In this document: positions 2,922-19,335 of the stretch, in pieces
Layout of the letters: the number at the start of each line of letters is the position of its first letter
How positions within the stretch are numbered: the first letter of the stretch is position 1
Source of the DNA: a virus
IMG/VR virus record: IMGVR_UViG_3300010149_000182
Coordinates: 1 to 23,479 of that record
Reading direction: 5' to 3' (one strand)
DNA length: 23,479 bases
The notes under the pieces: generated by a model
What the model was told of the DNA's origin: nothing
Seen by the model: only the letters and a program-made list of their open reading frames with translations
Database searches by the model: none
Position numbers and translations under genes: made by a program

Positions 2922-2961
2922 GTATAGTTAAGTTTAAACATGATTATTGAGGTAATTTAAA

Positions 2962-3906
2962 ATGACACAACCAACTAACACTTTTGACAGCTATGATGCT
3001 AATGGCATTCGTGAAGATCTGTCTGATGTAATTTTTAACGTTTCTCCTGAAGAAACTCCTTTACTATCCTCCATTGCAAAAGTTAGCGCGTCTAACACTT
3101 TGCATGAGTGGCAAACTGACACATTACGTAGTTCTACTACTAACGCTCACATTGAAGGCGATGACACTGCTGCTGAGTCTCGTGCTGCTACTAGTCGTCT
3201 AGGTAACTACACGCAGATCTTTAAGAATGCTGTTGTGACTCCTGACACTTCTGTGGCTCTTGATAATGCTGGTCGTGGTAAAGAAATGTCTTACCAGATC
3301 GTTAAAGTAGGTGCTGAACAGAAGCTAGACATTGAGAAGGCTTTGATGGACAACCAAGCTAAAGTAGCTGGTAGTTCTACTGCTGCTCGTCGCATGGCTG
3401 GTCTAGGCGCTTGGATCACTACTAACGTAAACAACGTTGGTACTGGTGGTGCAAACCCTACTGGTAATGGTTCTAACGCTCGTACAGATGGTGCTAAAAC
3501 TGCTTTTACTCAAGCTGACTTTGACACCACTATGCAAGAGATCTGGGCAGAAGGCGGTAAGCCTGACATGGTTATCTTGTCTGCTTCTCAGATGAACTTA
3601 GCTCTAGGCTTTACTGGTAACAACAACCAGCGTTCCACCATTGGTGCTGCTGATGGTAAAGTTGCTAACCTAATGAACATCTACATGACTCCTTGGGGTT
3701 CTGTTGAGTTTGTTCCTGCTCGTGAAAACCGTTCTCGTGACGTATTCATCATTGAGAAAGATAAGTTGGCATTTGCTGAGTTGCGCAAGATGAAGAACGT
3801 TGCACTTGCTAAGACCGGTGACAACGAGAAGCGTCAAGTAGTATGTGAAGGTACTCTTGTTGTTCGTAACGAGAAGGCTCTAGGCGCAGTAGTTGACTGC
3901 TCTTAA
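2962..3906 (+). CDS. Major capsid protein (SU10/DUF5309 type)
   Basis: A 314-residue protein that should form the shell of the head. The N-terminus (a Thr/Asn-rich start, then GIREDLSDVIFNVSPEETPLL, about residues 14-34) and the following HEWQTDTL are typical of SU10-family/DUF5309 major capsid proteins. The central part contains GGKPDMVILSASQ and PWGSVEFVPARENRSRDVFI, also characteristic of that fold. Codon use is more biased (many GCT, ACT, GGT) than in neighbouring genes, as expected for the most highly expressed protein. GAGGT at 2949-2953 is the ribosome binding site. A strong terminator follows the stop codon. Confidence 0.9.
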   Translation: MTQPTNTFDSYDANGIREDLSDVIFNVSPEETPLLSSIAKVSASNTLHEWQTDTLRSSTTNAHIEGDDTAAESRAATSRLGNYTQIFKNAVVTPDTSVALDNAGRGKEMSYQIVKVGAEQKLDIEKALMDNQAKVAGSSTAARRMAGLGAWITTNVNNVGTGGANPTGNGSNARTDGAKTAFTQADFDTTMQEIWAEGGKPDMVILSASQMNLALGFTGNNNQRSTIGAADGKVANLMNIYMTPWGSVEFVPARENRSRDVFIIEKDKLAFAELRKMKNVALAKTGDNEKRQVVCEGTLVVRNEKALGAVVDCS

Positions 3907-5958: not shown

Positions 5959-6173
5959 TCCTTAGATCTTTTCTTTATCTCACATTCCAAGTACCAGCGA
6001 GCCTTGGCAAGATCCTCAATGCCATTATCTTGATGCTTTAGGTCAGCTCGCCAGATATACTTTATAGCATTGCCCAGCGTAAAAGACATATGCTGGGTTA
6101 TTTCAATACACTCTACGCCACTGGGATGACTCTTGTAGTGGCTAGGGTTAATGCTATCCTGCTTACTTGCCAT
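5943..6173 (-). CDS. DUF3310 protein (T7 gp1.7-like domain)
   Basis: A 76-residue protein with the DUF3310 pattern: NPSHYKSHPSGVECIEITQHM, then LGNAIKYIWRADLKHQDNGIEDLAKARWYLE. In T7 the domain is part of gp1.7, a nucleotide kinase. This copy is little more than the domain, so enzyme activity is uncertain. The start is ATG 6173, because upstream in-frame sequence falls inside the preceding gene and lacks the family pattern. It overlaps that gene by 11 bases and is the last gene of the leftward operon, converging on and overlapping the rightward gene ending at 5958. Confidence 0.85.
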   Translation of the reverse strand: MASKQDSINPSHYKSHPSGVECIEITQHMSFTLGNAIKYIWRADLKHQDNGIEDLAKARWYLECEIKKRSKDYRKK

Positions 6174-6627
6174 CTTTATCCTTCCATACCATCTGAGGTA
6201 GACCACTTGGGCGACTAGCAAACCACCAGCTTGTGGCCAGTGAAGCAAGGCTTAAAATAGATAGTATAATAATCTTATAAAGTTCCATTAATTCAGCCTG
6301 ATCTATAAAGTCTAAGCCACCAGTAAGTTGCTCTATTGACACGATAAGAACATATACTTGATAGTACAGTATAGCGGTTAAAATAGGCCGTACAGCACTC
6401 TTTATAATACCACCTATACTTGGATCAGGCTTTTGCGAATGTTCAAATGCTCGTGCTTCTGACGTTGCTACACCAGCAACAGACTGATGCTTGATACGCT
6501 CTAGCTCGAACTTGTTTTGCAGATCTTGATACTTTCTATCTTCCCTGCGTTGGAAGATACCTAATACACCACCTACTATACCACCTACAGTAGATGATCC
6601 TAATATAGTCATGATTGCTTCTATCAT
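6163..6627 (-). CDS. Three-span membrane protein, likely holin (3TM type)
   Basis: A 154-residue membrane protein. It has an N-terminal Gly-rich hydrophobic segment (about 8-25), a charged helical linker (26-65), and two further spans (about 78-103, starting KSAVRPILT, and 115-140, ending WWFASR). The order of spans and the VRPILT signature resemble the 'holin of 3TMs' family known from gene transfer agents and marine phages. Holins let endolysin reach the cell wall. Start ATG 6627 is fixed by GGAGG six bases before it and by an ATGA overlap with the preceding gene. Two upstream neighbours are lysis-like, which supports the role. Confidence 0.7.
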   Translation of the reverse strand: MIEAIMTILGSSTVGGIVGGVLGIFQRREDRKYQDLQNKFELERIKHQSVAGVATSEARAFEHSQKPDPSIGGIIKSAVRPILTAILYYQVYVLIVSIEQLTGGLDFIDQAELMELYKIIILSILSLASLATSWWFASRPSGLPQMVWKDKDGK

Positions 6628-6830
6628 TTCTTGCCTCCAAGATATAATCCAAACCATGCAGCACCAGCACCAGTAACGACAGAAACAAGGCCAGCTTGCT
6701 CTAGGCTAGGTGAGGGTAATTGCATGAACCAGTTTATAGTCTGATACCAGACTACTGTATAAGTAACCAGCATTATGCGTGGTACTACACGAAGATCATT
6801 TAGTATTTGGGCTAGTTTAAACCAATCCAT
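6624..6830 (-). CDS. Small two-span membrane protein, possible holin
   Basis: A 68-residue protein with two hydrophobic segments (about 17-37 and 44-64) separated by a short turn with PSPSLEQ. Length and build match small class II holins. It begins MDWFKLAQILNDLR and ends AAWFGLYLGGKK, a pattern I associate with small proteins of lysis regions in marine podoviruses. It overlaps the next gene by four bases and shares one base with the preceding stop codon. Which of this and the 154-residue neighbour is the true holin cannot be decided from sequence. Confidence 0.7.
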   Translation of the reverse strand: MDWFKLAQILNDLRVVPRIMLVTYTVVWYQTINWFMQLPSPSLEQAGLVSVVTGAGAAWFGLYLGGKK

Positions 6831-7165
6831 TATGCGTCCATTTTTTCTGCTAGGTCAGGGTTTATACAGTTCCATTCTTTTAGGTCTAAGTACCAGCGTT
6901 GATTGCCTTCTACCCTAAGTATCTTATCACCTCTAGTGACAACACCACTAACAAACTCTTTGCCATAGATAGTGCGAAGTAAAACATCAACGTATGCAAC
7001 AGATTCTTTGGGTACTTGATATGAGCCTTCATCTTCTGCATAAAAGTTTGTATAAACAGTTGCTATGTTTGGATTTAAACAAACAACTGGCTTTATCTCT
7101 GCAAAAGCGTTTGTCGAAAACAGAAGCACAGCCGACAATGCGACTGCATATATAGATTTGCTCAT
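6830..7165 (-). CDS. Secreted/periplasmic protein in the lysis operon
   Basis: A 111-residue protein with a clear Sec signal peptide: MSKSIY, a hydrophobic core, and a likely cut after AFA at residue 22. The mature part is about 89 residues with two Cys (VVCLNPN and WNCINPD) that could form a disulphide in the periplasm. The middle (GDKILRVEGNQRWYLDL) looks beta-rich. There is no lipobox, so it is not a typical outer-membrane spanin. It lies between endolysin and holin-like genes, which suggests a periplasmic role in lysis or exclusion of other phages; neither is shown directly. Confidence 0.75.
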   Translation of the reverse strand: MSKSIYAVALSAVLLFSTNAFAEIKPVVCLNPNIATVYTNFYAEDEGSYQVPKESVAYVDVLLRTIYGKEFVSGVVTRGDKILRVEGNQRWYLDLKEWNCINPDLAEKMDA

Positions 7166-7187
7166 AATGTTAACCTTTTGTTACACG

Positions 7188-7610
7188 TTAATACTTTCCT
7201 TCTTTCATCATTCGTGCCAGCTTTAACGCCCTGCCTTTTACTTGCTCTGCATATTTGCTATTTAGAAGCTCATCAGACGCACGATCATATAAACCTAACT
7301 CAACAGCAGCAAGCATCTTCCTGAAGCTAAGTAGGCGACTTATACCCATATTAAAGCACATATCCTGCAAAACGTCTTGCCTAACATCATCTAGGTCTTT
7401 AAACCAAGGCAAATTGCTGTCTAATTCGCCGTATACGCGCTTTATATCGTTTCTGAGCATATAGAGTATCTCATCATCAGAAAGCCCTATACCGCCCTTA
7501 TTAGGGTCTATATTACGCCCTACACCTATTGTCAGTGCATTAGAGGTGCAGCGATAAACAAAACGCTTTTTGCCTTCATGCACTAACAACATATCTTCTA
7601 GTTTACTCAT
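7188..7610 (-). CDS. Endolysin, GH24 (T4-type) lysozyme
   Basis: A 140-residue phage lysozyme that should cut the glycan strands of peptidoglycan. The N-terminus carries the catalytic block: VHEG with Glu12, then YRCTSNALTIGVGRNID with Cys21 and Thr27. Aligned to T4 lysozyme (Glu11, Asp20, Thr26), Cys stands in place of Asp20, as in a subgroup of phage lysozymes with the YxC...LTIGVGRN pattern. The conserved FNMG block follows near residue 87. There is no signal peptide, so release depends on a holin. The start overlaps the preceding gene by eight bases; AAAGGG lies upstream. Confidence 0.93.
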   Translation of the reverse strand: MSKLEDMLLVHEGKKRFVYRCTSNALTIGVGRNIDPNKGGIGLSDDEILYMLRNDIKRVYGELDSNLPWFKDLDDVRQDVLQDMCFNMGISRLLSFRKMLAAVELGLYDRASDELLNSKYAEQVKGRALKLARMMKEGKY

Positions 7611-7905
7611 CTTTTTTTAGCCCTTTCGTTATTTGCTCAATGATGCCTTTTCGCCTTTCTTTGACCTTGTTGGCTATGCCATTTTTCTCAATCAACGTAG
7701 CAACCATGCCTGTGCTTGTTGCTAGGTGCTTGGCAATGTCTTTGTAAGTTTCGCCTACTAAGCGTAAATCTTCAATAGCCTTTAGGTCTGTGTTTTTCCA
7801 TTTACGATACTTCTTTTTTTCCTTCTTAAACTCTTTTTGCACAAAACTGTTATTGTCTTTTATTTTATTGATCTTAGCTAGATCAGGCTTAAAGGCTAGA
7901 TTCAT
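7603..7905 (-). CDS. Basic protein with probable helix-turn-helix
   Basis: A 100-residue, strongly basic protein. Residues 1-45 are Lys-rich and unstructured-looking. Residues about 50-75 (GETYKDIAKHLATSTGMVATLI) match a helix-turn-helix pattern, and a basic tail follows. It most likely binds nucleic acid and could regulate the leftward operon. It overlaps the preceding gene by four bases and the endolysin start by eight, so it is co-translated with both. I do not recognise a named family. Confidence 0.75.
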   Translation of the reverse strand: MNLAFKPDLAKINKIKDNNSFVQKEFKKEKKKYRKWKNTDLKAIEDLRLVGETYKDIAKHLATSTGMVATLIEKNGIANKVKERRKGIIEQITKGLKKDE

Positions 7906-8138
7906 ATTTCACTTACCATTGTACTAGGCGATACCGCCATTTTAACACGATCTTTAGGGATTACTGGCGCAACGTATATTCTATTTTGCCAGTAAGCATA
8001 AATATTTTCTGCCTCTACTGGGCAGTTGATACGCACATGGAATTGCAGCGCACCACAATCACCATATACCATAAACTGACCCTTACTCTTATACAAGGAT
8101 ACTTGACCTTTTACTGTGTGATGATTTTTGAATTTCAT
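7902..8138 (-). CDS. Small hypothetical protein
   Basis: A 78-residue soluble protein with no recognised domain. It looks beta-rich (VSLYKSKGQFMVYGDCGALQF), with single Cys residues in GDCGA and NCPVE. GGAGG lies before ATG 8138, inside the end of the upstream gene. It overlaps the next gene by four bases. It is probably an early accessory protein of the leftward operon. Confidence 0.72.
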   Translation of the reverse strand: MKFKNHHTVKGQVSLYKSKGQFMVYGDCGALQFHVRINCPVEAENIYAYWQNRIYVAPVIPKDRVKMAVSPSTMVSEI

Positions 8139-8140
8139 AA

Positions 8141-8536
8141 CTAATCCTCCAAGTATTCTAAATATTCGTCTTTATAGTCAAGGTACAAATCGTTATCGAA
8201 GAAGTACCATTCAACTGCCTCAGACATAAAGTCATTTAGATTCTGCATTGCCATATCTTTGTCTTTGGCATAAGTAACAGCAGCAGCCAGCATGTTTAAG
8301 TCATACTGCTTACAGTCTTGCTCAAAGTTAGATAGGTAATCTTCAATAACCTCATCTAAGTATAGATGAAAGTCGTTACCTTGAATCGAATCAATTACTA
8401 CTTTGCCTTCCTGTAGAATCTCATCTACATAGTATTGCTGAACAAAGTCGCGTAGCTTTTCGTCAAAGTCATCATCCTGTGCCAATGCATTATAATAGGC
8501 GTTAGTGCTTGCTGTTACAGCGCATAAATTAGTCAT
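8141..8536 (-). CDS. Highly acidic hypothetical protein, first of leftward operon
   Basis: A 131-residue protein with about 31 Asp/Glu against about 8 Lys/Arg, giving a net charge near -24. Acidic residues are spread along predicted helices together with many Tyr and Phe. There is no signal peptide or membrane span. AGGAG ahead of ATG 8536 is the ribosome binding site, and a divergent promoter region lies upstream. I recognise no family. First-position, very acidic phage proteins sometimes act as DNA mimics against restriction or CRISPR, but nothing here proves that. Confidence 0.75.
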   Translation of the reverse strand: MTNLCAVTASTNAYYNALAQDDDFDEKLRDFVQQYYVDEILQEGKVVIDSIQGNDFHLYLDEVIEDYLSNFEQDCKQYDLNMLAAAVTYAKDKDMAMQNLNDFMSEAVEWYFFDNDLYLDYKDEYLEYLED

Positions 8537-12090: not shown

Positions 12091-12237
12091 ATGGCTACTA
12101 CTAATCCAACAACAGGTGATGCGTTACGAAGCAGAGCGCCTACTAAGAAATATGACGATGGCTGGGATCGTATCTTTGGTAAGAAGGATAAGCCAAAGTC
12201 AGATAAAAAAGATGACAGTCAAAAAAAATCGAAGTAA
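12091..12237 (+). CDS. Small charged protein (ATTNPTTGD type)
   Basis: A 48-residue protein that begins MATTNPTTGDALRSRAPTKK, continues YDDGWDRIFGKK and ends in a Lys/Asp-rich tail. I associate this pattern with short conserved proteins of marine podoviruses, but no function is known to me. GAGG precedes the start by six bases. Its stop codon lies in the A9 run that starts the non-coding region. Confidence 0.6.
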   Translation: MATTNPTTGDALRSRAPTKKYDDGWDRIFGKKDKPKSDKKDDSQKKSK

Positions 12238-12271
12238 AAAAAAATCCCTGCTTGACGTAATCAGGCAGGGA
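12236..12271 (-). terminator. Hairpin with minus-strand U tract at the edge of the gap
   Basis: TCCCTGC (12245-12251) pairs with GCAGGGA (12265-12271). Extra pairing inside gives an 11-bp stem with one G-U pair on the plus strand, but a C-A mismatch on the minus strand. A9 at 12236-12244 supplies nine U only for minus-strand RNA. It may stop leftward transcription, or cap the 3' end of the rightward operon. Confidence 0.5.
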
Positions 12272-12280
12272 CTATAGAAT
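12252..12280 (+). promoter_or_regulatory. Strong sigma70-like promoter of the RNA gene
   Basis: TTGACG (12252-12257) and TAGAAT (12275-12280) are exactly 17 bases apart, each five of six to consensus. This is the best promoter match I found in the window. The start would fall near 12286, at the first base pairs of the TGAGTCGG helix. The -35 box lies inside the hairpin 12245-12271. Confidence 0.65.
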
Positions 12281-12285
12281 AAAGT

Positions 12286-12397
12286 GAGTCGGGTGATGGG
12301 AACGCAATCCCAGCAACAGCCGACAAGAGAACAGAAAATTCGACTAGCCGACTCAGTGCTAAGTTTATCAAATGTTACCTTGTAACACAATTTTTTT
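12286..12397 (+). ncRNA. Candidate structured small RNA of unknown class
   Basis: About 110 bases with the parts of a complete RNA gene. The upstream promoter (12252-12280) places the start near 12286. TGAGTCGG (12285-12292) pairs perfectly with CCGACTCA (12348-12355), closing a domain that contains the hairpin TGGGA-ACGCAA-TCCCA (12297-12312). A second CCGAC at 12320-12324 could compete for GTCGG, allowing two folds. The 3' end is a terminator: TGTTAC (12373-12378) with GTAACA (12382-12387), CAA, then T7 (12391-12397). Local GC is about 50% against about 40% around it. No open frame fits. It is not a tRNA: the arms and T loop are absent. It may act as a trans-acting RNA or as an attenuating leader of the downstream modification operon; both are inference. 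Confidence 0.55.
12373..12397 (+). terminator. Rho-independent terminator of the small RNA
   Basis: TGTTAC-CTT-GTAACA forms a perfect 6-bp stem with a 3-base loop. CAA separates it from seven T (12391-12397). The stem is short and AU-rich, so read-through into the downstream region is likely. Confidence 0.55.
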
Positions 12398-12401
12398 GAC
12401 T

Positions 12402-12411
12402 CTTGTTGGTA
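12402..12411 (+). repeat. Direct repeat, left copy
   Basis: CTTGTTGGTA, identical to 12654-12663. The surrounding bases (GACTCTTGTTGGTA against GACTTGTTGGTA) extend the match to 12 bases if a 2-base insertion is allowed. Confidence 0.6.
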
Positions 12412-12653
12412 CTGTTTGGGACATCCTGACCCAAGGTGTTAATCAGTGCTGACCAAAACTCAAGCATTATGCCCAGCGCAATGGCTTTAAACGCGCGATA
12501 GTAATACGCCACAGGTATGATGGGACTGACCAACCGCAACTCAGGCGCAAGGTACAAACCGAGACAGTGGACACAATTAGGGGCTTGTCGCAGCAATCAC
12601 GGAATGATGAAGCGATTCGGCAAATTGGCGTATTAGACTAGAGTAATAGAAGA

Positions 12654-12663
12654 CTTGTTGGTA
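12654..12663 (+). repeat. Direct repeat, right copy
   Basis: CTTGTTGGTA, second copy of 12402-12411. It closes the GC-rich segment. Its TTGGT part again forms one side of a hairpin (12659-12679), as in the left copy. Confidence 0.6.
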
Positions 12664-12721
12664 TAGGTGTCCCTAACCATCTAATGACTACTATTGCCTA
12701 AAATAAACAGGAGAAGAAGAA

Positions 12722-13429
12722 ATGAAGTACATGGGTAGTAAAACGAGAATAGCAAAGCATATATTGCCAATTATCCTCAAAGATCGGAAAGATGGTCAGG
12801 CGTGGGTTGAGCCGTTTGTAGGTGGTGGTAATATGATTGATAAGGTTGATGGTATTCGCTATGGGTTTGATCTTAACAAATATGCTATTGCTGGGCTTGT
12901 GTCTATACGAGACTGTCTTTATGACTTGCCTAAAAACAATAGTCAATTTACTGAAGATATGTACAAGGAGTTAAGGTCTAATGATGATTACAATCATAAA
13001 GGATACGCATCATTTGCATTAAGCTATGGTGGTAAGTTTATGGGTGGCTGGTGTCGAGGCAATAAACCTAATGGAGAGCCAAGGGATTACGTTAGAGAGG
13101 CGTACAATAATGCTGTAAAGCAAAGCCCAAAGTTGCAAGGTGTTACGTTGTATAGTTGCAGCTACAGTGACATATCTATACCCCATAACTCAATTATCTA
13201 TTGTGATCCACCATATCAGAACACAACTTCATATAAAGACGGTTTTAGTCATGATGGGTTTTGGCAATGGTGTCGAGATATGGCTAATAAGGGTCACACT
13301 GTATTTGTTAGTGAGTATGTCGCACCTAGTGATTTTGAGTGTGTATGGGAAAAAGAAATAGTATCAAGTCTAACTGTCAATACTGGCAACAAAAAAGGGG
13401 TTGAGAGATTGTTTAGGGTGGCAAAATGA
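12722..13429 (+). CDS. D12-class N6-adenine DNA methyltransferase
   Basis: A 235-residue Dam-like enzyme that transfers methyl from S-adenosylmethionine to N6 of adenine. The N-terminal KYMGSKTRIAKHILP is typical of the class. Motif I is VEPFVGGGN (29-37) and the catalytic motif is DPPY (162-165, in YCDPPYQNT). Length is near that of Dam-type enzymes. Target sequence cannot be read from the gene; GATC is only a possibility. AGGAGAAG lies before the start. It overlaps the helicase by four bases and opens a five-gene coupled operon with a Mom-like gene, so protection of phage DNA is the likely role. Confidence 0.9.
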   Translation: MKYMGSKTRIAKHILPIILKDRKDGQAWVEPFVGGGNMIDKVDGIRYGFDLNKYAIAGLVSIRDCLYDLPKNNSQFTEDMYKELRSNDDYNHKGYASFALSYGGKFMGGWCRGNKPNGEPRDYVREAYNNAVKQSPKLQGVTLYSCSYSDISIPHNSIIYCDPPYQNTTSYKDGFSHDGFWQWCRDMANKGHTVFVSEYVAPSDFECVWEKEIVSSLTVNTGNKKGVERLFRVAK

Positions 13430-14907
13430 TTGAGCTAAGACCACATCAAACAAGAGCTATTGAGATGCTGCGCCACTCACTAAAGGCAGGCAACAAGCGT
13501 CCAGTATTAGCCGCACCAACAGGGTTTGGTAAAACGATAGTAGGAGCATGGTTAGCATTATCAGCAGTAGCAAAGGGCAAGCGAGTATTGTTTGTCTGTG
13601 ATCGAATTAAGTTAGTACAGCAATCACTAGAAGCCTTTGACTCTTTCGGTATAGAAGTTGGTGTTATTCAGGGTAAGCATGAGCGAACTCGTTACTCTGC
13701 TCCTGTACAGATAGCATCTATACAAACACTAGCTAAAAAGCCAAAGATGCCTGTATTTGACGTCTGCATCATTGATGAATGCCAAGTGTTGTATAAGGCT
13801 CACATTGCTATGATGAATGCATACAACAACATTCCGTTTATTGGCTTATCAGCCACACCTTACAGTAAGGGTCTAGGTAAATACTTTGATGATCTACTAG
13901 TGCCAATCACTACACGACAGCTACAAGACCAGACCTACTTAGCAAAAGCTAAATACTATGGCGGAGCAAAGGTTAATCTATCTGGTGTAAAGACTAAGGC
14001 ATTACCAACTGGCGGTACAGACTACGATCCAAAGAGCTTGGCTAGTAACATAGAGAAAGACGATAAGCTCACAGGAGACATCATTAAGAACTGGCAGCGT
14101 TATGGCGAAGGCAGACAGACAATTGCATTTACTCCTAGCATTAAGCACAGTAAAGAGCTTGTGCGACAGTTTAACGAGGCTGGTATAGCTGCTGAACACA
14201 TAGATGGCTATATGGATCAGGAAGAACGTCAGATGCTGTATAAAGCGCACGACAATGGCGAGTTTATGATCCTGTCATGCTCACAGTTGCTTAACACTGG
14301 TTATGATGCTCCAAAGGTATCATGTATGATTGACTGCTACCCTACCAAGAGTCTTATCACATGGGTGCAGCGCGTAGGTCGAGTTATCAGGTCTCATAAA
14401 GATAAAGACTACGCTGTAATCTTAGATCATGCTGGTAATACATCTAAGTTAGGTTTTGCAGAGGACGTTGTACCTGATGAGCTAGATGATGGCGATAAGC
14501 GTTACAATGAAAAGTCGCTTACAAAAGACAAAGACAAAGAACCTAATGTAAAAGAATGTCCACAATGTCATGGCCACTTTGTAGGATTACGTTGTGCTTG
14601 TGGTTACGAGATACCTGTAAGTCAGCAGCTAGAGTCTACAGATGAGATGCTAGTAGAGCTTACTGCCAGCCAAAAGCGTAACAGAAAAACAAGCATGGAA
14701 GAAAAGTCGCAATTTTACTCAGAACTTATGGCTTATGCTTCAATCAAGGGTTATAGTCAGGGTTGGGCAGCGCATAAATACAGAGATAGATTTAGCGTTT
14801 GGCCTAACAAGGTAAAAGCACATACTATAAGTAATGGTATAAGCGATGAAGTGCTAAAGTTTATTACCAGTCAGAATATTAGAAATGCAAAAAGGAGAGC
14901 AGCATGA
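13426..14907 (+). CDS. SF2 DEAD-like DNA helicase with zinc ribbon
   Basis: A 493-residue superfamily 2 helicase. Motifs in order: RPHQ near the start, Walker A APTGFGKT (30-37), DECQ (117-120), SATP (142-145), and motif VI QRVGRVIR (315-322). A zinc ribbon follows, CPQC (378-381) with CAC (390-392), then a helical C-terminus containing GYSQGWAAHKYRDRF. It should unwind DNA with ATP in replication or recombination. Motif II is DECQ rather than DEAH/DECH. It is joined to its neighbours on both sides by ATGA overlaps. Confidence 0.92.
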   Translation: MIELRPHQTRAIEMLRHSLKAGNKRPVLAAPTGFGKTIVGAWLALSAVAKGKRVLFVCDRIKLVQQSLEAFDSFGIEVGVIQGKHERTRYSAPVQIASIQTLAKKPKMPVFDVCIIDECQVLYKAHIAMMNAYNNIPFIGLSATPYSKGLGKYFDDLLVPITTRQLQDQTYLAKAKYYGGAKVNLSGVKTKALPTGGTDYDPKSLASNIEKDDKLTGDIIKNWQRYGEGRQTIAFTPSIKHSKELVRQFNEAGIAAEHIDGYMDQEERQMLYKAHDNGEFMILSCSQLLNTGYDAPKVSCMIDCYPTKSLITWVQRVGRVIRSHKDKDYAVILDHAGNTSKLGFAEDVVPDELDDGDKRYNEKSLTKDKDKEPNVKECPQCHGHFVGLRCACGYEIPVSQQLESTDEMLVELTASQKRNRKTSMEEKSQFYSELMAYASIKGYSQGWAAHKYRDRFSVWPNKVKAHTISNGISDEVLKFITSQNIRNAKRRAA

Positions 14908-15506
14908 GTTTGCGTGACTGGACAGTGCAAAGGGTATCTAGGCAGGACGTAAGTTCATTTATAGAAAGTAATCACTATTCTGGCAATATTAATGGCTGTA
15001 TATCAGACTTCTGTTATGCTTTGTATGACACTATAGGAGAGATGAAAGGCGCATTGTTTTATGGCCGCATGGCTATGGCTAATCAATGGAAGCGATTTTC
15101 TGATAATCCTGAAAATGTAATAGAGCTAAGAAGATTGTGTTGTGTAGATGATACACCTAAAAATACTGAAAGTTATTTTATAGGAAGGTCTTTAAAACTG
15201 TTAGAGTCTGATTGGATGAAAGGTATTGTGGTGTCGTATGCTGATAAGGAGTATGGTCACAATGGCACAATATACAAAGCAAGTAACTTTACAATGGTTG
15301 GTGAGGTTGCTGGTGCAAAGGTCATTATATACAATGGAAAGCAATACCATGATAAGGCCATTAGAACAAAGTATAAGGGTCAGCTAAAGCCATTTGCAAA
15401 ACGTATCAAAGACGCTTTAGATAGTGGTGATGCTTACTATAAAAAAACTGCTGGTAAATACACTTACATATATCAGTTAGAAAAAAACAAAAGGAGATTA
15501 AAATGA
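14904..15506 (+). CDS. mom: Mom-like adenine modification enzyme (GNAT-type fold)
   Basis: A 200-residue protein resembling the Mom family, whose phage Mu member converts adenine to N6-carbamoylmethyladenine and so protects DNA from many restriction enzymes. Family-like blocks: ESNHYSG (21-27), ELRRLCCVDDTPKNTESYF (74-92) and SYADKEYGHNGTIYKASNF (111-129). These resemble the acetyltransferase-related core of Mom. The exact chemistry here is inferred. It overlaps the helicase start-to-stop by four bases and sits two genes after an adenine methyltransferase, as expected for a modification module. In Mu, mom expression depends on host Dam; here the phage carries its own methyltransferase. Confidence 0.78.
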   Translation: MSLRDWTVQRVSRQDVSSFIESNHYSGNINGCISDFCYALYDTIGEMKGALFYGRMAMANQWKRFSDNPENVIELRRLCCVDDTPKNTESYFIGRSLKLLESDWMKGIVVSYADKEYGHNGTIYKASNFTMVGEVAGAKVIIYNGKQYHDKAIRTKYKGQLKPFAKRIKDALDSGDAYYKKTAGKYTYIYQLEKNKRRLK

Positions 15507-17958: not shown

Positions 17959-17988
17959 TTGACCTAATTTAATTTGTTAGGTTGTATC

Positions 17989-19335
17989 ATGGGTTTACTT
18001 AGCGCAGGCGCAAAAGGTGGAAAGAAGGCAGTCAAGGGCTTGTTAGATCAGCCTATAAAGCCGACACAAGAAAGAATGCGTGATGCTGGCCTTATGTCAT
18101 TTGATGATGATGCTTTTCACGGATCAACCTACAATATAGAAGATTTTAGTTTAGCTCAAACCTTAAATCCAGAGGGTCACTTTGGCGCTTCTCATTATTT
18201 TACGAGTAGTGCTGATGACGCTAGCAGACATTATGCTGGCATGGGGCCAGACCTTACAAGCAGGATTGAGCAAAGGATGGATGAGCTTGATTCAATGCTT
18301 GATGGATACGAGATTGATGATCTTCTTGAATCTTACCCAGAAATGAGCAAAAAAGAAGCAGAGAAAATAGCTTCTGGTAATTCTGAAGTTTTTGATAACT
18401 TTAAACGTAGGGTTGCTACAAAAGAGCTTGCTGGCGACAATCTAGGTTCTATGTACCCTGTAAAGCTAAAAACAGGCAAGACTTATGATTTAGGCACAAA
18501 CGATGACACGTTTATGCGTTATGAGCGAGACCTGCCTGATAGGGATGACTTAGCTGATGAGATCAGAGATGAGATAGATAGAGCTGACTATGAAGATGAT
18601 GATGCTTTTGAGGATGCTATAGAGGAGCTTGTTGACGAGCGTTACCATGATGCTATGTCGTATGAAGATCCGCAAGGAGAGCTTGTTGATTTTATATCAT
18701 CTTTGCAGCGTCAGGCAGATGATTATGGGTTTGAGTCTGATGAGTTAATTGAAAATATTGTTATGACTGCTCAAGATTTTGATGGTATAACCGCAACAAA
18801 GCTAGATGATATTATGCGCTCTACACAATGGTACGCTGATGACGATATGGGTCGGCTTATCAATAATGAAGTATATAGACAAGCTGTAGAGGATGCAGGC
18901 TTTGATAGCATTAAGCATAAAGGTGACATTTTTAGGGGCATGGAAGTAGATCCTGATACAATTCATACTATTGTATTTGACCCTAAAAACATTCGATCAA
19001 AGTACGCTCAATTTGACCCAACAAAACAAGCATCTTCTAGCATACTAGCATCCAGATTCCTACCTACAACTGGATCAGGTTTACTTGCTATGTACGCCTT
19101 GAGTCCTGATGATGCCAGAGCAGCGCAGATAGCCGCAACAGATACTAGGGATGTAGGTAGTATACAAGCTGCTAGAAACCCAAGACTGCAACGTGCTGCT
19201 GGTTTACTAGGCTCTATTGATACACCAATAGGGTCTCTGTTTGAGTCTACTCCTAATGTCTTGAATCGCTGGGCTTATGGTGAAGAAGCAGACGCTATGG
19301 ATAAATTAGGTATGGCTTTAGAGCTGATGCCATAG
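17989..19335 (+). CDS. ADP-ribosyltransferase-like protein (ART-PolyVal type)
   Basis: A 448-residue protein. A split ADP-ribosyltransferase pattern, as in the ART domains of phage polyvalent proteins, can be traced. FHGSTYNIEDF (His44) is followed by GHFGASHYFTSSADDASRHY (63-82), MYPVKLKTGKTYDLG (155-169), GFDSIKHKG (304-312) and IVFDPKNIRSKYAQFDP (328-344). An acidic helical insert (about 95-290) separates the blocks. The C-terminal 100 residues are of unknown fold. It could modify host proteins, perhaps after ejection with the DNA, since it lies among virion genes; that is inference. The start is ATG 17989 with weak upstream AGGTTG. Confidence 0.7.
   Translation: MGLLSAGAKGGKKAVKGLLDQPIKPTQERMRDAGLMSFDDDAFHGSTYNIEDFSLAQTLNPEGHFGASHYFTSSADDASRHYAGMGPDLTSRIEQRMDELDSMLDGYEIDDLLESYPEMSKKEAEKIASGNSEVFDNFKRRVATKELAGDNLGSMYPVKLKTGKTYDLGTNDDTFMRYERDLPDRDDLADEIRDEIDRADYEDDDAFEDAIEELVDERYHDAMSYEDPQGELVDFISSLQRQADDYGFESDELIENIVMTAQDFDGITATKLDDIMRSTQWYADDDMGRLINNEVYRQAVEDAGFDSIKHKGDIFRGMEVDPDTIHTIVFDPKNIRSKYAQFDPTKQASSSILASRFLPTTGSGLLAMYALSPDDARAAQIAATDTRDVGSIQAARNPRLQRAAGLLGSIDTPIGSLFESTPNVLNRWAYGEEADAMDKLGMALELMP

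Follow-up and report, generated by a model that had tools for sequence, protein, structure and literature searches.

The locus and its relatives

The window, which is the whole stretch of 23,479 nucleotides analysed here, is the IMG/VR virus record IMGVR_UViG_3300010149_000182. It contains genes for portal, scaffold and head proteins, a Sak-like annealing protein, NinB, NinG, an SF2 helicase, a Mom-like protein and terminase. A block of minus-strand genes at 6163–8536 lies inside an otherwise plus-strand stretch; it includes an endolysin-like protein (7188–7610), and the GC skew reverses there. A 453-aa protein encoded at 17974–19335, between the terminase and structural genes, matches no PHROG, and ART-PolyVal only weakly. 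The Mom-like DNA modification gene (14904–15506; PF25680, E = 1e-32) is close to a Dam-type adenine methylase gene, which suggests that the phage DNA may be modified.

The initial annotation described a self-contained small-RNA gene at 12252–12397. Based on the comparison with homologs, this hairpin cluster is predicted to be the 5' domain of an RNA of ~413 nt with several pseudoknots. The features of the locus are as follows.

12245–12271, minus strand: hairpin TCCCTGC/GCAGGGA (12245–12251 with 12265–12271) beside a run of nine A (12236–12244)
12252–12280, plus strand: sigma70-like promoter TTGACG-17-TAGAAT, scoring 10/12
12285–12697, plus strand: whole structured RNA, ~413 nt
about 12285–12410, plus strand: 5' domain
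12285–12355, plus strand: helix P1, TGAGTCGG (12285–12292) with CCGACTCA (12348–12355), closing the first loop
12297–12312, plus strand: hairpin P2, TGGGA/TCCCA (12297–12301 with 12308–12312), inside P1
12319–12410, plus strand: pseudoknot P3, 12319–12329 with 12400–12410 (11 bp) and 12333–12339 with 12390–12396
12373–12387, plus strand: hairpin P4, TGTTAC/GTAACA (12373–12378 with 12382–12387)
about 12459–12697, plus strand: 3' domain
12502–12635, plus strand: central helix Hc, TAATACGCCA (12502–12511) with TGGCGTATTA (12626–12635), 10 bp, perfect
12519–12681, plus strand: helix Hd, GATGG (12519–12523) with CCATC (12677–12681), crossing Hc as a pseudoknot
12569–12672, plus strand: helix Hf, GGACAC (12569–12574) with GTGTCC (12667–12672), crossing Hc
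12682–12698, plus strand: conserved 3' tail TAATGACTACTATTGCC
12722–13429, plus strand: Dam-type adenine methylase gene (PF02086), just downstream of the RNA and outside it

The stretch 12280–12720 is also seen in contigs whose helicase is 97–100% identical to that of the window. In L039, whose helicase is 84% identical, the 5' domain is kept and its helices are changed yet complementary. More distant phages share the 3' end TAATGACNACTATTGCC of the RNA. The tail TAATGACTACTATTGCC served as a search pattern and stands at the RNA 3' end in many viral contigs; a second motif, CGGGA..AAACRGCG...GCTGATNAC, taken from the distant phages that bear TAATGACNACTATTGCC, added 84 stretches. With chance matches set aside, 111 loci were used, some of which overlap on the same contig and many of which are near-identical. 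Eighty-six of them are long enough for comparison and give 56 non-redundant sequences. Pattern matches without the remainder of the RNA, those in L053, L054, L069, L071, L145, L149, L157 and L158, were regarded as chance. One bacterial contig matched, in an Anaerolineales MAG. The divergent members L153, L147, L150 and L152 are recognised mainly by the 3' tail. In L155 (about 2949–3042, minus strand) the 3' domain seems to lack its middle part, either as a natural variant or by assembly error.

The window is recovered at 12573–12693, with E = 6e-4 when its own record is searched, by a covariance model made from 44 sequences that all lie outside its subfamily; L153 is recovered at 7e-11. The subfamily of the window scores low with this model, 14–19 bits, so its link to the other members also rests on the shared gene position, promoter, helix layout and 3' tail.

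The RNA starts at P1 or close to it and finishes with the conserved tail TAATGACNACTAT, which is followed by ribosome-binding sites and start codons of unrelated genes; in the window the RNA ends (~12697) just before the ribosome-binding site of the Dam methylase gene. Homology continues to 12697, and the gene is not complete within the ~145 bases, or the transcript of ~110 nt, first proposed; the RNA is about three times longer. A long reading frame is absent from both strands of the locus, in line with the first reading, and the longest open stretch is 73 codons. The GC content is raised only slightly (0.458 against 0.419). The RNA does not fit the ARAGORN model for tRNA and tmRNA, in agreement with the original view that it is not a tRNA.

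The promoter at 12252–12280 was considered the best of the window. It is present, but five other sites equal its score of 10/12, and promoter-like sites in the window are no commoner than in shuffled sequences. The promoter match alone therefore proves little. A sigma70-like promoter is, however, found just upstream of P1 in 42 family members from many lineages, with a mean score of 8.4/12 against 6.2 (sd 1.0) at random positions. Since these members carry one upstream of the same helix, the promoter in the window is credible, and the proposal of an RNA gene with its own promoter holds.

Just before the RNA, the minus strand has a hairpin shaped like an intrinsic terminator (12245–12271), and the -35 box of the RNA promoter lies within the hairpin loop. 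Similar minus-strand terminator shapes occur near the RNA start in 26 loci; the stem sequence in L039 is different.

Conserved pairing in the two domains

The evidence for structure is comparative. Single-sequence folding of the 121-nt piece 12280–12400 is unremarkable: it is slightly better than shuffles (z = -1.7), and P1 is absent from the fold. For P1, P3 and Hc the counts come from pairing of the strands, since the MAFFT alignment of the 5' domain (A2) misplaces P1 in some rows and takes in a wrong stretch of L146.

The 8-bp helix of the initial annotation, here P1, is perfect in the sequence and is a true RNA helix, to judge from its many compensated versions in relatives. Perfect versions include TGAGTCGG/CCGACTCA, TGTGTTGG/CCAACACA, GTGTCGG/CCGACAC, TGTTCCGGA/TCCGGAACA and CGTACCGGA/TCCGGTACG. 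The inner hairpin P2 is likewise present as described, and relatives have a hairpin of different sequence at the same place. The compensatory changes in related phages that were suggested as a check are found; the refuting condition named with it, helices broken uncompensated in relatives, was checked, and the helices passed.

The rest of the P1 loop is paired with a stretch downstream of P1, forming the pseudoknot P3. The controls for P3 are weakly separated in RNAduplex energy (-21.0 against -17.5 kcal/mol) and moderately separated when partners are swapped (7.5 against 5.4 bp), so that the support for P3 is less firm than that for P1 and Hc. The 3' hairpin with its T7 run, which had been taken for a terminator, corresponds to P4 and one strand of this long-range conserved helix P3. 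The hairpin has two GC pairs and was not called by the terminator scan. P4 is GTTAC/GTAAC in L039 and GCGTTA/TAACGC in L062, and both keep the hairpin without the T-run. Because the T-run pairs in P3 and is absent from these relatives, the terminator is rejected. The first observation is therefore partly confirmed, right in the helix and wrong in the terminator and the size. Its interpretation is partly supported, since an RNA gene with its own promoter and of a class outside Rfam 15 stands, and a terminated sRNA of ~110–145 nt does not.

The 5' domain contains two GTYGG and two CCGAC strands (12288–12292, 12320–12324, 12348–12352 and 12405–12409). These permit two simple hairpins as an alternative to P1 plus P3, one of which is used by the minimum-energy single-sequence fold. 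A folding switch is a possible meaning of this alternative pairing.

In the 3' domain, Hc has 40 distinct versions among the relatives, with a mean of 7.45 perfect bp against 4.10 when partners are swapped, and all seven of its pairs (7/7) covary in alignment A1. Hd is seen as GAGGAC/GTCCTC and variants in relatives, and five of its six pairs covary. Hf is GGATAC/GTATCC in L146; both-side changes are found in 7/8 of its pairs, but only 69% of its cells pair. The strongest single covariation belongs to a small loop pseudoknot of other subfamilies (column pair 38–59). No conserved pairing partner for the 3' tail TAATGACTACTATTGCC was found.

For 36 pairs compared across 44 sequences, paired cells amount to 87.6%, and both-side changes occur in 28 of the 36. 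The covariation score of this set is 0.432, against 0.148 for shuffled and at most 0.121 for slid alignments. Strand, register and end are all kept, which argues for an RNA and not a DNA motif. Taken from these comparisons, a promoter-driven, multiply pseudoknotted RNA of ~413 nt is almost certainly a real class.

No known class was recognised in the first reading, and the covariance search of Rfam 15 gives the same answer. The window has no match at the gathering threshold. Permissive scans returned only sub-threshold chance matches for the window region and L039 and nothing for L042, and scans of eight further carrier loci returned only a tRNA elsewhere. Group I and group II introns, RNase P, tmRNA and 6S RNA were considered from the pseudoknot layout and have no model match. 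By blastn against cultured phages, with three members and the window region as queries, the RNA is unmatched, and the window-region matches listed fall in the methylase gene. The R1 model has no match in the whole records of 16 annotated phages picked by helicase, terminase and portal similarity, apart from one at chance level (E = 0.14). No description of this RNA was found in the open-access literature; the literature search was confined to such papers, and novelty thus rests mainly on Rfam 15. The RNA appears to represent a previously undescribed class, with no relative that could be found.

The genomic neighbourhood

Each of the 23 records with a match has exactly one copy of the RNA. The carriers are uncultivated phages, and the annotated phage records yielded no cultured carrier. 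Its neighbours are genes for a Sak-like annealing protein, exonuclease, NinB, NinG, helicase, a primase zinc ribbon and terminase. This neighbourhood is the replication and recombination module, in at least three gene orders. In L079, L081, L087, L095 and their relatives, the RNA separates two divergent operons, that of the helicase and that of the annealing protein. The first downstream gene varies among relatives: it is the Dam methylase, the helicase, or a member of several unknown families. In L037 and L038, whose helicases are 97–98% identical, the Dam methylase is missing at this place and the helicase gene comes directly after the RNA. The methylase gene was gained or lost exactly at the 3' edge of the RNA between these loci and the window.

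In most loci there is no terminator before the gene that follows the RNA. The RNA of L079/L116 and L087 has an intrinsic terminator directly behind it, and then comes promoter-like sequence for the next operon; the RNA there, at least, looks like a complete transcription unit. Elsewhere, to judge from sequence, it may be either a leader or a stand-alone RNA.

Phage PolA, DnaB and TOPRIM primase are absent from all but three (G002, G003 and G016) of 25 carrier records. PolA is seen in two of the 25, DnaB in three, and Toprim_2 above the cut-off in one, with a weak Toprim match in one. RepL and Phage_rep_O, the two initiator families searched for, are seen in 0/25 of these incomplete contigs. 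Because the contigs are incomplete, these absences are soft. Among the divergent members, DnaB is also present in the records of L147 and L150, and PolA in that of L150. The "primase" of the window is a zinc ribbon only (weak PF08273 match), and the primase-like gene is reduced to a zinc ribbon in both carriers examined (2/2).

In cultured relatives that lack the RNA, a primase is retained next to a helicase of this type. The RNA-less phages PS-1 and YA3 have a Toprim_3 primase, that of PS-1 being composed of a zinc ribbon, DUF7146 and Toprim_3. In Vibrio phage 1.233 and phage HS5, also RNA-less, the slot just upstream of the helicase, or a place near it, is taken by a gene whose annotation is replication protein or RepL (confirmed for 1.233). 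Carriers thus have the RNA where these two phages have a replication-initiator-type gene.

Possible roles of the RNA

The reading preferred here, tentative and drawn by analogy with known systems, is that the RNA helps to start replication of the phage DNA with no initiator protein involved. This possibility comes from the single copy, the position in the replication module, the missing PolA, DnaB, TOPRIM, RepL and Phage_rep_O, the initiator gene or primase in RNA-less relatives, and the precedent of T4. The RNA would be transcribed early and fold into its pseudoknotted form. In the form of an R-loop or preprimer, it would then interact with DNA or with the replication machinery of the host close to its own gene, and would provide the first primer or put it in position. 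The UvsW-like SF2 helicase and the primase zinc-ribbon protein of the phage might handle the structure formed by the RNA, and the host would supply the polymerase, DnaB and the lagging-strand primase.

T4 has its own polymerase and primosome. Its origins oriF and oriG are similar to the present case in that a promoter transcript lies at the phage origin, and a UvsW-like SF2 helicase is here in the same module as the RNA. The R-loop RNA at T4 oriF primes replication, and UvsW unwinds such R-loops (PMC3016281). The T4 origin R-loops are independent of specific sequences (PMC3016281). Differing from the T4 origins, the RNA here is highly structured and its carriers mostly lack polymerase and primosome.

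The RNA II preprimer of ColE1 forms an RNA–DNA hybrid, is cleaved by RNase H and is extended by DNA polymerase, and it is controlled by the antisense RNA I. Like RNA II, the present RNA is promoter-driven, structured and several hundred bases long. RNA II belongs to an element without an initiator protein, and the carriers may be of that kind, with neither RepL nor Phage_rep_O in the 25 incomplete records. The minus-strand terminator shape near the RNA start lies where an antisense RNA could end. No convincing minus-strand promoter was found in the window, nor a conserved one. Unlike RNA II, the present RNA is followed by a terminator in one clade.

Several facts count against a role in replication start. 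No GC-skew switch, a weak proxy for an origin, is seen at the RNA in loci where the flanking genes are co-oriented. A read-through preprimer is less easily reconciled than a finished RNA with the terminator directly after the RNA in L079/L116 and L087. Primase and polymerase are commonly missing where a phage relies on the replisome of its host, as lambda does, and the three carriers with replication enzymes do not conform to the pattern.

A serious rival, of only slightly lower probability, is that the RNA instead acts in trans as a large RNA or RNA-only assembly of the GOLLD and ROOL kind, abundant in infection and sequestering or enclosing something, with the proximity to replication genes being incidental to timing. 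GOLLD and ROOL are ~600–900 nt long, are often near tRNA islands, and form a homo-oligomeric RNA cage. They resemble this RNA in being large, pseudoknotted, phage-borne and noncoding; the own promoter, and in one clade the own terminator, would suit such an RNA. It has multiple pseudoknots, and its 3' domain is conserved while its 5' domain varies more, a split also seen in GOLLD (PMC12286853). Both GOLLD and ROOL have Rfam families (PMC12286853) and are hence covered by the scans above, which returned no GOLLD, ROOL or OLE match. The RNA is clearly shorter at ~413 nt, the window has no tRNA, and the tie to the replication module survives rearrangements. A cis-acting leader of an early operon, staying on the mRNA and controlling downstream genes by antitermination, attenuation or ribosome-binding-site access, is the other serious rival and a little less probable again. 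The 5' position before an operon is shared with the riboswitches and leaders of Rfam, the next same-strand gene mostly starts at most a few tens of bases beyond the RNA, no terminator intervening, and the hairpin with its A-run, possibly a transcription-unit boundary, is often just before the promoter. Such a leader has to be reconciled with the changing first downstream gene, with the loci between divergent operons, with the own terminator and following promoter-like sequence in L079/L116 and L087, and with a size and number of pseudoknots that are much for a leader. A riboswitch or gene-specific leader was rejected, as the RNA has no such Rfam match and precedes different genes and operons.

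Two other explanations are far less probable. A conserved DNA element, such as origin repeats or a packaging or attachment site, whose transcript is functionless, would suit the intergenic position in the replication module; the compensatory changes in crossing helices, with G–U allowed and in register behind a promoter on one strand, make it very improbable. A stand-alone sRNA of ~110 nt ending at the T7 run has promoter, helix and hairpin with T-run in the proper order. This reading is hardly credible, as the T-run is unconserved and paired in P3, and the conserved structure continues for 300 nt.

Large structured RNA classes are rare in bacteria and phages, and several of those that are understood are central machines or regulators. 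The present RNA, known from more than 100 viral loci, occurs in single copy under strong constraint and is tied to the phage replication module; its broad type, the large structured phage RNA, has precedents in GOLLD and ROOL. If the RNA does act in replication start, it would explain how DNA synthesis starts in tailed phages without a recognised initiator or catalytic primase. The wider proposal is that a large group of tailed phages, which recruit the host replisome, uses a new ornate RNA class in place of an initiator protein and a catalytic primase; it is put forward with considerable doubt. Even with another role, the RNA class is new, and its clear consensus structure makes it fit for an Rfam entry and for searches.

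The RNA-less Pseudomonas phages PS-1 and YA3 have 614 and 472 noncoding bases, respectively, in the region upstream of the helicase. Neither Rfam nor the R1 model matches these noncoding stretches. The stretches (L160 4388–5000 for PS-1 and L161 4260–4730 for YA3) have ATCGGCCAGTGATGGTTAAAGCG in common, and they are possibly another structured RNA in the same slot.
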